From: Vibrio sp. B1FLJ16
GTDB lineage: Bacteria; Pseudomonadota; Gammaproteobacteria; Enterobacterales; Vibrionaceae
Direction of reading: 5' to 3'
DNA length: 64,000 bases
NCBI RefSeq assembly: GCF_905175385.1
Contig: NZ_HG992749.1
Location: 1,488,001-1,552,000 of the forward strand
Shown in pieces: positions 8,590-15,410 of this stretch (the stretch's first letter is position 1; every line of letters begins with the position of its first letter). The notes beneath the pieces were generated by a model. That model was not told the DNA's origin. It worked only from the letters and a program-made list of their open reading frames with translations, and searched no databases. Both the position numbers and the translations under genes were made by a program.

Positions 8590-10047
8590 GTGTTGAGACA
8601 GTTATTTTTCCTCATTCTCTGTTCGGTTATGTTGGCGGTTTCTACAGTTTCTTTCGCCGAACCAACTTCTGAGGAAGATGAGTTATATGGCGCACTTTGT
8701 GTTGTGCGAGCAGACGATAAAATCGTTTTAGTTCATGAAATACTAACAGACAAAATCTCGCTTCCTGGTGGTTCAATAGGCGAAGGTGAGTCTCCTCAGG
8801 CTGCCGCCCAACGAGAAACTTGGGAAGAGACAGGACTGGTTGTTACCGTAGGTAAAGAGTTAGGTCGTATGTTTAAGGCTGTGTTCTACGATTGCGTATC
8901 GGACTCTGAAATTATTGCCTTTTCAACGATTAACGCGATGGGGGGCAACGAACTACCTGTATGGTTTGCGCCTCATTATGGTGTAGAGACGGCGTCAGCA
9001 ATGTTGCTGCAACCCAAAATGCTGCCTTCATCCTTATATCGCTACCCAGAAGAGTGGCCAGTAATCGTTGGTTATTTTGATCAGCTCTCGTTGCAACCTG
9101 TGCACTATGTGAATCAATTGATTGATTCTGCGCCATCATTCCGACAGCTTGAACTAGAGTGGATGACCGGCTTACAAAGTTGGGTAGGCTCAATCTCAGA
9201 GCACAGTTTTCAGACAGTTCACCAGTTTGCAGCTTTGACCCTTGAGTTGATAGCACCGACCATTTTACTGTTTTTGTTCCCGTTCGTTCTGATGCGCTTT
9301 GATAGTCGCTTTATTTTCAGGCTCTTCTTCGCTATTTCTGCGACATCAATTATGGCGTTGGTCGCACAACAGGGATTCTCGCTGCCTCGACCGCATGTCT
9401 ATGTACCAATGGTAGAGCTGACACATAGTTTCGGTTACAGCTTCCCTAGCTTACCAATCGCGGTATGGAGTTGTGTGTTCATGTTCCTGTTTCACAGAAC
9501 TGGTAGTTTTGGTTTCAATAGTACAACAGGTGCAGCCGCTCTCCTCACCGTGATGGTGATTCTGTCCAAGTTCTTCCTTGGTTCAGCGTTTATTTTGGAC
9601 ATGTTGTTAGGTGCGCTATTGGGTATTTTGGTCGCGTGGCATGTTTTACGGCTAGAAGAGAATCCGGAGATAAATGTTGATCAGCTGCTCACTTCCAAAG
9701 GTGTTTGGTTTGCTATGACAGCGATTACCGTTGCTATTTCAGTTATTTGGCCATTGCCGGTTTTTGCTTGCTGGCTTGCGGTTTTGATCACTGCGTCGGT
9801 GTTAGTTCTGGCATTTGATAACTCGCAAGTACAAATAAACACAAGGCAAATGATTTTCGTTACTCTGGTGCTGGTATTAGCTCATCAACTGTATTTGTAT
9901 TTCGCATCGCTCGTATCTTCCGACAGCTTGTGGTCTTTAATCTTTACTGCACTTCATTACCCATTACTGATGTTGCTGTGCTTTATGACCGTGCGCAGGC
10001 TCACACAAGATCAGTGGCAGCAGAGGGAAGTTCAGGAAGTAGAGTAG
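8590..10047 (+). CDS. Exported Nudix hydrolase fused to a degenerate PAP2-like membrane domain
   Basis: The protein has 485 residues and a GTG start decided by an AAAGG site 9 bases upstream. Residues 1-23 look like a signal peptide with SFA before the cut. Residues 33-160 form a Nudix domain with a full box from Gly61 to Leu83 (Gly61, Glu67, Arg75-Glu76, Glu79-Glu80, Gly82). Residues 210-470 contain many hydrophobic segments arranged like a PAP2 phosphatase. There, however, the signature is decayed: Arg-Pro at 267-268 and Asp337 remain, PSGH reads PSLP at 286-289, and the third-motif His is Ala333. I infer an active Nudix domain facing the periplasm, anchored by an inactive PAP2-like unit. 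The substrate is unknown. Confidence 0.8.
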   Translation: MLRQLFFLILCSVMLAVSTVSFAEPTSEEDELYGALCVVRADDKIVLVHEILTDKISLPGGSIGEGESPQAAAQRETWEETGLVVTVGKELGRMFKAVFYDCVSDSEIIAFSTINAMGGNELPVWFAPHYGVETASAMLLQPKMLPSSLYRYPEEWPVIVGYFDQLSLQPVHYVNQLIDSAPSFRQLELEWMTGLQSWVGSISEHSFQTVHQFAALTLELIAPTILLFLFPFVLMRFDSRFIFRLFFAISATSIMALVAQQGFSLPRPHVYVPMVELTHSFGYSFPSLPIAVWSCVFMFLFHRTGSFGFNSTTGAAALLTVMVILSKFFLGSAFILDMLLGALLGILVAWHVLRLEENPEINVDQLLTSKGVWFAMTAITVAISVIWPLPVFACWLAVLITASVLVLAFDNSQVQINTRQMIFVTLVLVLAHQLYLYFASLVSSDSLWSLIFTALHYPLLMLLCFMTVRRLTQDQWQQREVQEVE

Positions 10048-10084
10048 GGCGTTTTGATACGTGCACCTTTCAAACAAAAACCTC

Positions 10085-10093
10085 GCTAGTGCG
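10085..10093 (+). repeat. Left copy of 9-bp target-site duplication
   Basis: GCTAGTGCG, identical and in the same orientation as 12672-12680, lies directly outside the left inverted repeat. The bases beyond it on either side differ, so the duplication is exactly 9 bp. Confidence 0.93.
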
Positions 10094-10117
10094 CAAGCTA
10101 TTACGCTTTTGTGTTGA
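10094..10117 (+). repeat. Left terminal inverted repeat
   Basis: The outer end begins CAAGCTATTACGC. It is a perfect 24-base match to the reverse complement of 12648-12671, and similarity stops immediately inside. Confidence 0.93.
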
Positions 10118-10119
10118 AG

Positions 10120-10151
10120 CCAAACGAGATGGTTAACCCATCTCGTTTTTT
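10120..10151 (+). terminator. Intrinsic terminator just inside the element's left end
   Basis: A perfect 10-bp stem (AACGAGATGG with CCATCTCGTT) with a 5-base loop is followed by a T-run on the plus strand. It faces transcription entering from the Nudix gene and replaces the host terminator that the insertion broke. On the minus strand it lies just after the HEPN-like gene, but with only a short T-run. Confidence 0.85.
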
Positions 10152-10156
10152 TGGTC

Positions 10157-10756
10157 TTAATCAATGCCAAATTGAGCTTTTAAGGAGGGGTCAAGCTCAA
10201 ACATATGTCTTTGAAGCTCTTCAACATCTTTGTTGAACTCTTCCTGCGTCTCAATGCCTTTAGTCACATTGTTCTCTCTGGAAGGTTGTTCGCTGATTGC
10301 TAGTTGATGGTCGTCTTTGTGTCGGCATATAAATGCAGAAATTACATAAACACAGTATTCAGATAGAAGCATCACTTCTGCGTAAGTATTTGGGACATCC
10401 GCATCAAAATATCGTTTATCTAGACAAGTTGGTTTTCCTTGCTCGTTATCGTCACGAAACCCGTGAGCTAACACCGTGTTCCTGAAGCCTTGAATCCCAG
10501 TCCAGCTTTTAAGTCTTTTTATTGCAGGAGCTGTTATTTTCATCGTGTCTCGAATGGTTAGATCGTCCTTTGCGTAATTATTAAATCGTTTCCATTCATC
10601 CATGAATGAGCAGATATCGATGAGCATCTTGTTATTCAAAGACCACTTAACATCTTCGTCACGCATATACCGTTTTATGACTTTTAAATCGTTTTCCATT
10701 ACTGTTTTCAAACCGCTTAAGACTCGAAGCGATTCCTGAAACTTGGTCAATGGCAT
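10157..10756 (-). CDS. HEPN-like protein carried by the insertion element
   Basis: A 199-residue protein of no recognised family. The ATG at 10756 is chosen because AAAGGAG lies 5 bases upstream; a TTG start 15 bases earlier would overlap that site. It is largely helical by composition. Arg92-Asn93 with His98 (RNTVLAH) fits the R-polar-x(n)-H motif of HEPN domains, many of which are RNases in toxin-antitoxin or phage-defence systems. It follows the transposase gene by 27 bases, so the two are probably co-transcribed. A role as a passenger toxin, an RNase or a transposition regulator is inference only. No partner antitoxin is seen. Confidence 0.7.
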   Translation of the reverse strand: MPLTKFQESLRVLSGLKTVMENDLKVIKRYMRDEDVKWSLNNKMLIDICSFMDEWKRFNNYAKDDLTIRDTMKITAPAIKRLKSWTGIQGFRNTVLAHGFRDDNEQGKPTCLDKRYFDADVPNTYAEVMLLSEYCVYVISAFICRHKDDHQLAISEQPSRENNVTKGIETQEEFNKDVEELQRHMFELDPSLKAQFGID

Positions 10757-10783
10757 AAGTTCTCCTTTCAATGATAACGATGT

Positions 10784-12577
10784 TTATGGATATAGAATCT
10801 TCCTAATCTCAACACAACCTTTAGCTAATCCAAGTCGCTGGGCTGCTGTCTTTTTATCATGCTTACTCACATAACAGTAGTTGTAGAAAGTACGAAGAAT
10901 TTGGAGTTGTTTGCCAATCATCTCTGGGTTGTATGGGCTTTTCCCTGTCCAGACTCGACCAGCATTGGAGCTAGTGCTAATGGGTCTCTCAAGTGCAGAT
11001 AAACGCCTCCTGACAATCTGAAAAAAGTTATCGATAGGATGGAGTGATGCGTCTAACAATATCATCGCTTTATCTGTTTCAGTTAGCCTGTCGGTAGGAG
11101 TGAGAAAGCACACATGTTTCTCACATTCATAAATCTTGTGTATAGGCAGTTCAAACCATGTTTGACGCTCTCCGCTTTTTGCGACAGGCTCCTTCAAGCT
11201 ATGGAGGGCAACGATCTTACTTGCTTCCCTCTCATCGACACCGTGTTCCTCTTGGATTTTCAGCAATAGTTTTTGAGTTGTGTTAACTAAAACCCTTCTC
11301 TGATCAACGTTCAGTAGCTTATTAATTTTCACGTACAGAGACTGGAGGTTTCTGCGTTTAATTTGAGACGAGAAAGCAATGTTGCAAGCTCGCTCTATAG
11401 CTGGCTCTTGGTCTAGATAGAACCTAAGTCCAGAGGCATGCCCTATCAAACGTTCTAAATGAATGAAATGAGCATACATCGTATACTCAGAATGAACTTG
11501 AGCACCTTTGTTCGGAAGGTTTGTTGCTGTCAGTTGGTCTAGAGCTTCAACACCATAATCTTCGGCTAACTCTTCTATGAAGTAACCCAAGCTGATTTCA
11601 CTTATTGGGAGCGGTACGCTGGAATAATACTTAATCAGTTCATTTCGCTTATTCTCAACTTCCTTTGATAGTTGCTTACCAAGAGCGTGCTCATATGGAA
11701 GCCACAACCTTGCATTTTGGCGATTATAGTCCTTCAAGTTCTGATCCACTACATACTGCTCATCGGTCAAAATATCATCAAGCACTACTGAAGGATCGTA
11801 GTTTACATCCATCCCAAATACATATCGGCTTGATTTGTCTGCTGTCCCTATAGCATTAATGACAACGTTCTTTTTGTCTTTCCTGTCAGTCCAATTAACT
11901 CGGTATTCTTGTCTATCAGTAGATAGTCTCATGAAACCTAAAGGCATCTGCCTTAATTGTGCTTCTCTACTTTGAGTAAAGCTAATACAGCGTTCATAAA
12001 ACATATCGATCTTGCGATATATCGTAGGAGCACTGAGTTCTGTAATTTCCATCATTCGATTAATACTCATGTCGTTGACTATCAGCCGAAATAATGTGGT
12101 ATTGAGGTGTGATTTACTGTCTGGGTGTGATCTTCTTTTATCCGAATCAGCAGTAAATGTCGTTAGACACTCACGACATCGGTATCTTTGATGACCTTTT
12201 GAGGTCTTCCCAAAGCGCTGGTATGACTCTGGCGAGCTTGAAACCTTGTTGTCGAAATTCACGCACGAAAGGTTGTGACACGCAGCCCCATCTTGTCTGA
12301 TGACTTGTTTTCTCTCAGTTAGATATCTAGCTCGTTCTACTTCCTCATGAATAGCTTGGTTGCTTTTAATGGTCATGTAGCTATTGCACGCCTTGCAAAG
12401 CAGAGAAGAACCGTTTCGTTTAGTCCCACTGATTCGGTAGTTGGGGTCAGAGCGTATGTTGCTGGCAGGAATGCTGAAGTTTGGACAGGTAGGGTTACTA
12501 CATGAGTTCACGTTGATACCATGCGACTCATGGGGAACTCTTGGTTGCGATTTGCTCTGGACAGATTTTTGTCTCAC
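10784..12577 (-). CDS. DDE-type transposase with two N-terminal zinc ribbons
   Basis: Probably 597 residues from GTG 12577, which has GGAGG 5 bases upstream; an ATG at 12592 is possible but lacks a ribosome site. Two C-x4-C/C-x2-C zinc ribbons are visible (Cys26, 31, 61, 64 and Cys100, 105, 134, 137). Near residues 170-190 is a helix-turn-helix-like segment (SINRMMEITELSAPTIYRKI). Candidate catalytic acids are Asp221 (LSTDRQEY), Asp389 (YLDQEP) and Asp516 (DNFF). The C-terminal block RRRLSALERP and AQRLGLAKG recalls uncharacterised proteobacterial transposases. The placement between perfect inverted repeats supports the call. The exact family is not assigned. Confidence 0.85.
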   Translation of the reverse strand: MRQKSVQSKSQPRVPHESHGINVNSCSNPTCPNFSIPASNIRSDPNYRISGTKRNGSSLLCKACNSYMTIKSNQAIHEEVERARYLTERKQVIRQDGAACHNLSCVNFDNKVSSSPESYQRFGKTSKGHQRYRCRECLTTFTADSDKRRSHPDSKSHLNTTLFRLIVNDMSINRMMEITELSAPTIYRKIDMFYERCISFTQSREAQLRQMPLGFMRLSTDRQEYRVNWTDRKDKKNVVINAIGTADKSSRYVFGMDVNYDPSVVLDDILTDEQYVVDQNLKDYNRQNARLWLPYEHALGKQLSKEVENKRNELIKYYSSVPLPISEISLGYFIEELAEDYGVEALDQLTATNLPNKGAQVHSEYTMYAHFIHLERLIGHASGLRFYLDQEPAIERACNIAFSSQIKRRNLQSLYVKINKLLNVDQRRVLVNTTQKLLLKIQEEHGVDEREASKIVALHSLKEPVAKSGERQTWFELPIHKIYECEKHVCFLTPTDRLTETDKAMILLDASLHPIDNFFQIVRRRLSALERPISTSSNAGRVWTGKSPYNPEMIGKQLQILRTFYNYCYVSKHDKKTAAQRLGLAKGCVEIRKILYP

Positions 12578-12647
12578 GAAAGCCTCCAACATACTGAGTG
12601 TACATCCAGTATATTAGAGGCTTTGATCATTTCTGGCTAGCTATTAA

Positions 12648-12671
12648 TCAACACAAAAGCGTAATAGCTTG
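12648..12671 (-). repeat. Right terminal inverted repeat
   Basis: Perfect 24-base inverted copy of 10094-10117, ending GCGTAATAGCTTG at the outer edge. Confidence 0.93.
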
Positions 12672-12680
12672 GCTAGTGCG
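12672..12680 (+). repeat. Right copy of 9-bp target-site duplication
   Basis: GCTAGTGCG, the same as 10085-10093. It is followed by AGGTTTTTT, the other half of the interrupted terminator stem whose first half is AAAAACCTC at 10076-10084. Confidence 0.93.
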
Positions 12681-12708
12681 AGGTTTTTTATTATCTGGAT
12701 CGAATCAC

Positions 12709-12961
12709 TTAGATCATCTGGCACTTGTGTAGTTTAGAAATCAGGGCCTCACGGCGCAGATCCAGAATTTCATTCAGTAGTTGCTTCTGAGAATTTAAGC
12801 CAAAATGCTCTGTGTAAGTTTTCACTTTCTGGATTTCATCTGAGCTCAGTCGATACACTTCTTTTTTTAGCTGAGCTTCTGCTTCTTTTTTTTATTAAGC
12901 CTTTGTTTTCTTGCATCAGTTTAATGATTGTTTTATCCAAAGGGTGTGGTTTTCTTGCCAT
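12709..12961 (-). pseudogene. Small frameshifted gene (about 83 residues if repaired)
   Basis: An ATG at 12961 has a GGAAGG site 6 bases upstream. The frame MARKPHPLDKTIIKLMQENKGLIKK runs to a tract of eight A (minus strand, at 12886-12893). It then continues in another frame as EAEAQLKKEVYRLSSDEIQK and on to TAA at 12709-12711. With one A fewer the reading frame is open from end to end. It is either a frameshift pseudogene, a homopolymer sequencing error, or programmed slippage. The product is a small, charged, helical protein of no family I recognise. Its 3' end faces the terminator that the insertion element broke. Confidence 0.6.
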
Positions 12962-13253: not shown

Positions 13254-15410
13254 TTAGTAGCTTACTTGGTAGTTCAAAGTAAAAGTCCGACCACGGCCTT
13301 TATAGTCATAGGCTGCGGCATCGTAGTGAGAGGAATACACAATTTCAGCGCGCTGGCCCCATATGGTTGTGTAATCTTTATCAAACAGGTTTTGAATACC
13401 AAATCCCAGACTTCCAACCGGAAGCTGATAACTTCCCACTAAGTCAAATACTGTATAGCCATCAAGTTTGTTATCAGAATCATCTTCGTAATCAAACATG
13501 GTTTGGCCTTGAAGTTTTAAAGCCAGGTTTGTGTCGTACCAACCCGCCCAGGCGTTTGCTTTTGAGGTACTGGCTTCACCAGCAGTGAAATCTTCCCAGC
13601 CATCATCACCTTTCACTTCAGAAACAACGTAGTGGCCAGATGCACCGATCTGGATGTTGTCGTCCACCCAGTAAGAGGCCTGTGCCTCTAGCCCATAGGT
13701 ACGCTTTTTATCGTCTATTTCGTTGATCAGCAATGTTGTTTTATTGTAGGTGACCGACTTATCAGATTGTGAATAATAAGCAGCGGTTTGTATATTCAGT
13801 TCACCAGTGTCAAGACGGTAGCCAAGTTCAAAACTGTCGGTTTTGATCCCCGACATTTTAGACTTGTTTACGTTGATACTGTCGTTCAACTGCCAGTGGT
13901 CGCCAACTAAAGTGTAGTTACCTTGTCCGTAGTATTTCGCTGGGTCGGCAAGGTCAAAACCTTGAGAGAAGTTGGCCCAGATTTGAGAGTCTGTATTTAA
14001 GTGATAGATCGTGCCTAAGTTAAACAGTCCGACACTGTAGTCTGTTTTACCTCCCGGAACAGCATCTGCAGAGGTACCACTTCCTGCCGCTATCTTTTTC
14101 TGTTGGCTGTAACCTACGAAATCGTCAATCTCGTTCTCAATGTATTGGTAACGAAATCCGCCTTCAACATTCCAATCGTCGCTGATTGCATAGTCCGCTT
14201 GAACAAAACCAGCAACTGAGCTGACCTCAATGCCCGGATACCGACCGACTTTGGCGTAAGTTTTATTGATTAGATTTCCGGAATTGTTGGCGATGGTAGA
14301 ATCGTACAGCGCTTGGTTGCTATCGAGTTTGTCTTGATATGCGTCTATGCCATAAACGATGTTGAAGCGTTGTATACTTTTGGCAAGAGCCGCTTTTAAT
14401 GAAATGACATCGGTAATTTGCTGACCAGAAGATTGATAGTAGGGCGTGTACGTCTGATCTTCTTTACGATATGAAGCTTCGGCAATCAACTGGTGCCCCA
14501 GGAACTTCTCATCAATATAAGATGCGCTTAGCATGATGCGTTCTGTTCCGTGCTCGCGGTCTGAATCAAAACCTTCACGAACATCGATGAAGTCACTGCC
14601 TTCAATATAGAGGCCGTAAGGGGAGTCTTGTTGGCTGTCGTAGTATTGCCCCAGAAGGTTCCACTGCTTTGTCTCAGAAAGCGTAATACCAACCGTGGTG
14701 AGAAAATCGACAGTTTGGTTGAACTGCAATGAACCTTGTGAAATATCTGGGGTAGCGATATCACCATTCGCATCGAAGTAACCTTGAGTTTCGCTGTAAA
14801 CGACAGACGCACGAGCCTGAAGTTTATCATTACCGCCAGCAAGCGCCTGGGCAAGTTTGTAATCAAAATCTTCACCTGAGTTGAAGCCAGATGAGCCACT
14901 AACAAATGATTCAAACTCTAAGTCTTCGCTCAAAGCTTTTTTGCTGATGATGTTAATCACACCACCAGATGCGCCGGCACCGTATATAGAGGTAGCTCCT
15001 GACAGGACTTCAATACGATCAATGTTAAACGGGTCAATCGAATCCAGGTAACGACTGATTTGGCGAGATGACTGTAGAGAGACACCGTCAATCATCACGA
15101 GCATCTTACGTCCACGCAGGTTTTGTCCGTAATTGGTTCGGGCGCCGCTACTTACATCTAAAGAAGGGACGGTTGATGCGAGTATCTCACCAAGCGATTT
15201 TCCGCCTCTATATTCCCGCTCGATTTGCTCGGAACTGATATACCAAACTGTTCCCGGTATATCGCTAATTGCTTTGGGAGTACGACTGGAGACGACAACG
15301 ATTTTTTCGTCGGTGATGGTTTCTTGTGCTTGAGCAACGCACACAGTGCAGACTGCACTAACAGCCATAGCCACTGTGGAAATTTGTAAACGTCCTTTTT
15401 TAATGTTCAT
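13254..15410 (-). CDS. iutA: TonB-dependent ferric siderophore receptor, IutA (aerobactin) type
   Basis: Outer-membrane receptor for ferric hydroxamate siderophores, 718 residues. A signal peptide ends near residue 28 (CVAQAQ). The plug domain covers about residues 40-160, with PSLDVSSGARTNYGQNLRGR and a DSIDPFNIDRIEVLSGATS segment close to E. coli IutA. A 22-strand barrel ends YKGRGRTFTLNYQVSY, again IutA-like. A Fur box lies about 130 bases upstream. No aerobactin synthesis genes (iucABCD) or TonB system are in the window, so it probably scavenges foreign siderophore. The exact ligand is inferred from resemblance. Confidence 0.85.
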   Translation of the reverse strand: MNIKKGRLQISTVAMAVSAVCTVCVAQAQETITDEKIVVVSSRTPKAISDIPGTVWYISSEQIEREYRGGKSLGEILASTVPSLDVSSGARTNYGQNLRGRKMLVMIDGVSLQSSRQISRYLDSIDPFNIDRIEVLSGATSIYGAGASGGVINIISKKALSEDLEFESFVSGSSGFNSGEDFDYKLAQALAGGNDKLQARASVVYSETQGYFDANGDIATPDISQGSLQFNQTVDFLTTVGITLSETKQWNLLGQYYDSQQDSPYGLYIEGSDFIDVREGFDSDREHGTERIMLSASYIDEKFLGHQLIAEASYRKEDQTYTPYYQSSGQQITDVISLKAALAKSIQRFNIVYGIDAYQDKLDSNQALYDSTIANNSGNLINKTYAKVGRYPGIEVSSVAGFVQADYAISDDWNVEGGFRYQYIENEIDDFVGYSQQKKIAAGSGTSADAVPGGKTDYSVGLFNLGTIYHLNTDSQIWANFSQGFDLADPAKYYGQGNYTLVGDHWQLNDSINVNKSKMSGIKTDSFELGYRLDTGELNIQTAAYYSQSDKSVTYNKTTLLINEIDDKKRTYGLEAQASYWVDDNIQIGASGHYVVSEVKGDDGWEDFTAGEASTSKANAWAGWYDTNLALKLQGQTMFDYEDDSDNKLDGYTVFDLVGSYQLPVGSLGFGIQNLFDKDYTTIWGQRAEIVYSSHYDAAAYDYKGRGRTFTLNYQVSY

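Follow-up and report, generated by a model that had tools for sequence, protein, structure and literature searches.

The locus described here raises the question of why a mobile element should lie exactly in the loop of a transcription terminator of its host. It is part of a 64,000-nucleotide stretch of the genome of Vibrio sp. B1FLJ16 (contig NZ_HG992749.1, positions 1,488,001 to 1,552,000), in the following termed the window, which contains a complete mobile element of 2,578 bp at positions 10094–12671. We consider it very probable that this element belongs to a little-described family of unit transposons which use an IS1/IS1595-like transposase and insert, guided by hairpin shape, at the apex of Rho-independent terminators. 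Members of this family have defined ends and a target duplication, targets that are mostly centred on a hairpin apex and share no sequence consensus, often terminators reading inwards from their ends and variable cargo, and the same element is found at different sites.

The end repeats of the window's element are 24 nt long and 100% complementary, and the ends are unambiguous because the next base outward mismatches on both sides. An earlier sequence-only reading of the locus had claimed such perfect inverted repeats, a flanking 9-bp direct repeat and an insertion at the loop of a terminator hairpin, all of which were borne out to the base; its range of 10085–12680 does hold the element but includes both copies of the duplication, which lie outside the element proper. 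After removal of the element and one repeat, the rejoined host site reads AAAAACCTCGC-TAGT-GCGAGGTTTTTT and forms the perfect 11-bp stem with a TAGT loop that had been predicted, with a folding energy of −15.5 kcal/mol (z −5.9) which none of 200 shuffled sequences equalled. Apart from the mutual match of its two end repeats, the element has a copy number of one in the host genome. Orthologous terminators without the insertion exist in other species of the genus: in L020 both flanking genes are present with the terminator alone between them, and in L024 and L025 an uninserted terminator with an almost identical stem lies downstream of the orthologue of the left gene. Judged by its perfect repeats, the insertion in Vibrio sp. 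B1FLJ16 is plausibly recent.

The same kind of target was found throughout the family. Ends were sought in 53 loci, including the window, without reference to hairpins; 36 of them yielded inverted repeats plus a duplication, and 34 of these were scored, with L081 and L087 outside the count. The duplication comprises 9 bp in 28 elements, 10 bp in four and 7 bp in two, 9 bp having been chosen where several lengths fitted; dropping this preference gives 11 bp for four loci and leaves the apex count given below unchanged. At 27 of the 34 sites, a dyad score of 7 or more occurs no further than 1 nt from the middle of the duplication, compared to 381 of 57,973 intergenic control positions (0.66%), and the stricter score of 8 is reached at 26 sites against 0.38% of the control. 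An A-run of at least four bases on the left combined with a T-run of at least four on the right flanks 26 of the 34 sites (control mean 0.9%), and no sequence consensus is present among the 28 nine-base duplications. The preference for terminators, which the sequence-only reading had raised as a possibility, is strongly supported for the family.

Movement of the elements is documented by related copies at different places which have these same ends. G015 and G128 contain deletion derivatives of an element 87–89% like that of the window, located in two unrelated terminators and matching each other over 416 bp at 100% and over 389 bp at 99.2%. Likewise, L013 and L093 have an element in common (96% over 2,384 bp and 93% over 435 bp) in different terminators. 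The 1-kb flanks compared among these copies gave no mutual match.

An insertion of this type splits the terminator of its host, and many elements carry a substitute. Within 300 bp of an element end, inward-reading terminators were detected on the left in 15 and on the right in 20 of the 34 elements, on either side in 25 and on both in 10, most of them starting ca. 15–60 bp inside the end. Among interior windows of the elements the frequency is 18 of 654 (2.8%); a fairer control is provided by the same end windows, where outward-reading terminators amount to 12 of 68 (4 left, 8 right) vs 35 of 68 reading inwards. With these terminators, transcription of the affected host genes would again be stopped and the insertion would be nearly harmless. 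In the window's element, the inward hairpin next to the left end would stop transcription entering from the left gene. Such features also conform to an untargeted insertion of which only the copies in harmless sites survived: 20 of the 34 elements lie between convergent genes and one between divergent genes, according to a greedy and rough caller of open reading frames (ORFs) which was used for gene direction and cargo, and 25 bring an inward terminator with them. However, intergenic DNA beside the stem should be equally harmless or more so, and selection does not account for a centring within 1 nt of the apex, as only 0.66% of intergenic positions have such scores. Because the insertions are apex-centred, untargeted insertion with survivor bias is rejected and appears barely tenable.

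Targeting by hairpin shape might proceed as follows. The transposase of ca. 600 residues with its zinc ribbons and RNase H fold (D226, D394 and D521) would join the element ends to the target with a stagger of 9 bp, the midpoint of which coincides with the apex of a Rho-independent terminator hairpin. The target would be chosen by the shape of the hairpin and not by its sequence, i.e. by a dyad stem, a loop of 3–6 nt and usually flanking A- and T-tracts. We infer that recognition of the hairpin lies with the transposase itself, extruded hairpin or cruciform DNA being the most likely form of the target. As an unlikely though serious option, it might instead read the dyad symmetry of duplex B-DNA, with two half-sites between A- and T-tracts, without any extruded hairpin; the two tracts at 26 of 34 sites are in line with this, and a symmetric duplex would suit a transposase dimer. 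However, the half-sites have no evident common sequence, as the duplications lack a consensus and the stems differ, and L012 is a clear apex target without A- or T-tract. A recruitment of the transposase during termination, through RNA polymerase or through the hairpin of the nascent transcript, would agree with the resemblance of the targets to working terminators with T-runs and with the predicted gene end found within 60 bp of an element end in 30 of the 34 elements; most sites are symmetric, and we regard such a transcription-coupled process as clearly unlikely. Targeting of attC or repetitive extragenic palindromic (REP) sequences was ruled out because a shared consensus is absent and T-runs are present.

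Several observations weigh against hairpin-directed insertion or limit its scope. Ends with a duplication were not obtained for 17 of the 53 loci (L004, L005, L010, L011, L015, L016, L077, L082, L083, L086, L095, L096, L097, L103, L123, L128 and L137), and the sample consists of recent or well-kept insertions. The insertions of L014, L093, L138 and L125 lie in hairpins but 1.5–3 nt off-centre, and a clear terminator is missing at the targets of L084 (on a Rhizobium plasmid), L085 (on a Marinobacter plasmid) and L102; the L085 site folds into an imperfect hairpin with the duplication at its centre. In the weaker test, which uses folding energy alone, only 23 of the 34 sites rank within the lowest 5% of the control windows belonging to each site. 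Among the Gram-positive copies only L087 provides a usable duplication (8 bp), and its site has no clear hairpin; L086 displays both end repeats and no duplication, and the flanks of L081 contain a hairpin recognised by eye with the duplication off-centre and an arm score of 0. Some sites had already been seen when the scoring (dyad score with a cut-off of 7, tolerance of ±1 nt) and the test for internal terminators were devised. An internal terminator was not detected in 9 of the 34 elements, and the interior windows used as control consist mainly of coding sequence. Bench evidence of transposition was not found for the Gram-negative family. In the literature searched, with a wording that was perhaps too strict, no description of terminator targeting by this transposon family was encountered.

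The features of the locus are compiled in Table 1. The sequence-only reading had described the split terminator as shared by two convergent genes, and this holds for the direction; the right partner is uncertain, as two short minus-strand ORFs in different frames (12709–12961) precede the first full-length gene. Together, these two ORFs may represent a single small gene that was interrupted at an A/T run. By eye, the full-length gene on the right appears to code for a TonB-type receptor.

Table 1. Features of the element and its surroundings in the window
Feature	Position	Strand	Remarks
Left gene	8590..10047	+	ends 37 bp away from the duplication
Split host terminator, left arm	10076..10084		AAAAACCTC; stem runs on into the duplication
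Left target duplication copy	10085..10093	n/a	9 bp, GCTAGTGCG
Left terminal inverted repeat	10094..10117	+	24 bp, perfect
Inward-reading terminator hairpin	10122..10155	+	11-bp stem, then T-run
Passenger gene	10157..10756	-	199 residues from ATG 10756; ORF extends to TTG 10771
Transposase ORF	10784..12592	-	602 residues
Transposase leader hairpin	12580..12623	-	18 bp; GGAGG ribosome-binding sequence in the 3' arm
Right terminal inverted repeat	12648..12671	-	24 bp, perfect
Right target duplication copy	12672..12680	n/a	GCTAGTGCG
Split host terminator, right arm	12681..12689		AGGTTTTTT
Short ORF	12709..12858	-	
Short ORF	12836..12961	-	
First full-length gene on the right	13254..15410	-	573 bp away from the duplication

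The likely true start of the transposase is a GTG at position 12577, resulting in a protein of 597 residues with four zinc-ribbon cysteine pairs and an RNase H fold. This fold is supported by an AlphaFold model and by matches to ISCth4, Tn5 and Hermes. The residues D226, D394 and D521 are located on strand 1, strand 4 and a late helix, as is characteristic of DDE enzymes, and are conserved in the transposases, D394 being replaced by E in one of 31 rows; a catalytic role of the three is presumed. The sequence-based search against solved structures gave nearly exclusively zinc-finger proteins among the best 60 of 104 matches, one of these 60 being the regulatory chain of aspartate carbamoyltransferase. 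In the window's element, the leader hairpin upstream of the transposase may sequester the ribosome-binding site in transcripts that originate outside the element; as the GGAGG lies within it, such transcripts should not be translated. A comparable leader arrangement is known for IS10 and IS50.

Could the element simply be an ordinary member of IS1 or IS1595 with an incidental passenger? IS1 generates target duplications of 8–10 bp (9 bp) and has ends of ca. 23–24 bp, to which the 9-bp duplication and the 24-bp ends of the window's element correspond, and the IS1/IS1595 zinc-binding domain (NF050000) is recognised with 33.4 bits, above the cut-off of 28. In contrast, the IS1 transposase model NF033558 reaches 36.7 bits against a cut-off of 100 and covers residues 123–208 only, within the N-terminal zinc-ribbon/helix-turn-helix part. 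The InsA-type zinc ribbon PF03811 is a borderline case, with 24.9 bits (cut-off 26.1) for the element's transposase and matches in 4 of 70 members at E 1e-3. None of the 70 aligned sequences matches a Pfam catalytic domain at this threshold, including that of IS1595 (PF12762), which is also not found in the element's own genome. A single ORF of ca. 600 residues, about twice the usual size for IS1 and IS1595, four cysteine pairs instead of the InsA/InsB organisation, the cargo and the terminator targets further set the element apart from IS1; in comparison with IS1595, the zinc-binding domain model is common to both and the differences lie in the missing PF12762 match, the size and the targets. 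IS1595 members may carry passenger genes and use a D-D-N/E triad, and terminator targeting is, to our knowledge, not a listed trait of either family. Ordinary membership is thus highly unlikely, and the suspicion of an undescribed family gains support from a transposase which is only a remote relative of IS1 and IS1595.

Among described systems, Tn7491 comes closest. This dfrG transposon was first noticed in Tn6198 of Listeria, and a 9-bp duplication, evidence for movement and the location of another copy between convergent genes are reported for it (PMC10763498). Its transposase-like protein shares 24% identity with that of the window's element across 96% of the query (E 2e-32), and its end repeat starts with TAAGTAGTT, comparable to TAAGACGTT in L099 and CAAG.. 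in the window's element. In L086 and L087, the insertion element protein next to dfrG, found on Enterococcus/Staphylococcus plasmids and phages, is distantly related to this transposase, each locus has the same 23-bp repeat at both ends, and that of L087 is identical to the repeat printed for Tn7491 (PMC10763498). Tn7491 differs by its Gram-positive hosts, by an N at the third catalytic position, here a D, by the lack of a clear terminator at the one site examined and by dfrG as cargo in place of a HEPN-like passenger. The main text on Tn7491 does not use the word terminator (PMC10763498), and the insertion element protein is described as apparently always linked to dfrG (PMC8638950).

With respect to the target, REP-targeting insertion sequences (IS1397, ISPsy8, ISRm22 and others) use fixed points of palindromes, ISRm22 inserting on the axis, and require a repeated REP sequence with a consensus (PMC1525189). 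In contrast, the targets found here are many different terminator hairpins in which a consensus is absent. Group IIC introns insert beside Rho-independent terminator hairpins and attC sites. They are retroelements which rely on RNA pairing and settle next to the stem, with neither a duplication nor a DDE enzyme.

With its passenger, the window's element indeed carries a non-transposase gene, and it is to be regarded as a small cargo transposon and not as an ordinary insertion sequence. The passenger protein is helical and HEPN-like, and R92, N93 and H98, invariant in 31 sequences, presumably constitute an RNxxxxH-type HEPN RNase motif. It has no family match in Pfam or NCBIfam, and its sequence retrieves nothing below E 0.13 among solved structures. 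Homologues comprise 52 proteins; a match was found in one of 197 genomes of the host's family, which is the element's own, and none in plasmids. Passenger relatives with 71% and 41% identity occur on two viral contigs (L144 and L145). We infer that the passenger may serve as a defence or addiction RNase. A function in the transposition machinery was ruled out, since the cargo differs between near relatives: the elements of L124 and L125 are 85% alike over 1,944 bp, and their cargo proteins have no mutual match (E 1e-4).

Family-wide, 30 of the 34 elements carry at least one non-transposase ORF of at least 90 residues. Recognisable defence modules occur in 8 of the 30 cargo-bearing elements, based on scans which covered 41 of 48 cargo ORFs with Pfam and 30 of 48 with PADLOC. 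The cargo includes Gabija GajA/GajB (L141), Septu PtuA/PtuB (L140), a CBASS cyclase with a 4TM protein (L101), the PADLOC types RT_IV and 2TM_IV, interpreted as a retron (L142), Tmn (L129), an ApeA-type protein found by Pfam only and without a PADLOC match (L009), and DNA methylase/restriction-type genes (L007 and L012, the nuclease match of L012 being weak). Further elements contain a monooxygenase-like gene (L018 and L019), TetR plus DAPG hydrolase (L100), a two-component pair with an esterase (L132), a PF00144 protein (L131) or PEP-CTERM proteins (L094 and L136); the remaining cargo consists of unknowns. The cargo of L140 (Septu) differs from that of L141 (Gabija), although the two transposases form sister rows in the tree. 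On a Polaromonas plasmid (L083), for which no ends were found, a transposase relative is followed by AAA-domain, HNH and further genes, which are maybe also defence cargo. In all ten scanned members of at least 785 residues (L101, L133–L136 and L138–L142), a DnaQ/DEDDh exonuclease scoring above the Pfam cut-off is fused N-terminally to the transposase, and these proteins form one starred clade in a quick tree. In L100, a separate RNase_T ORF is situated next to a shorter transposase.

Strong matches to the transposase are rare. Including the element's own genome, they were found in 3 of 345 genomes of the order (E 1e-60) and in 4 of 369 of the class (E 1e-40); the family of G349 has them in 19 of 246 genomes (E 1e-40), and in the order of G795 one of two genomes matches, which is G795 itself. 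Alignment of the transposase against viral contigs gave one locus; the exact 24-bp end is absent from these contigs, and element DNA is absent from plasmids. Relatives of ca. 500 residues were observed in Vibrionaceae (G000:C2:319845-320915 and L056–L076). Some transposase match exists in 253 of 296 family genomes, true elements included, among the matches listed, and the ca. 500-residue relative seems to account for most of these genomes. All eight zinc-ribbon cysteines are kept in 14 aligned copies of this relative; in an alignment gapped around two catalytic positions, D394 is replaced by P in 14 of 14, and D is retained at position 226 in 3 of 14 and at position 521 in 3 of 13. The host's own copy contains an in-frame TAA. 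Judged from these substitutions, the Vibrionaceae gene is probably a domesticated transposase.

Taken together, we slightly favour a picture in which a broadly scattered family uses terminator shape as a sequence-independent safe harbour, swaps in its own terminator, shuttles single defence modules, includes a DnaQ-fused clade and has left a catalytically dead relative that is kept as a chromosomal gene in Vibrionaceae. Terminators are common in bacterial genomes, and a transposase which finds them by shape would, if this holds true, constitute a natural tool for integration at safe sites. It would likewise offer a route by which individual defence systems (e.g. Gabija, Septu, CBASS or retrons) could travel independently. 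Tn7491, a clinically spreading resistance transposon, is placed in a larger family. As a whole, the family provides a model in which a structure-guided choice of targets by a DDE enzyme can be tested.
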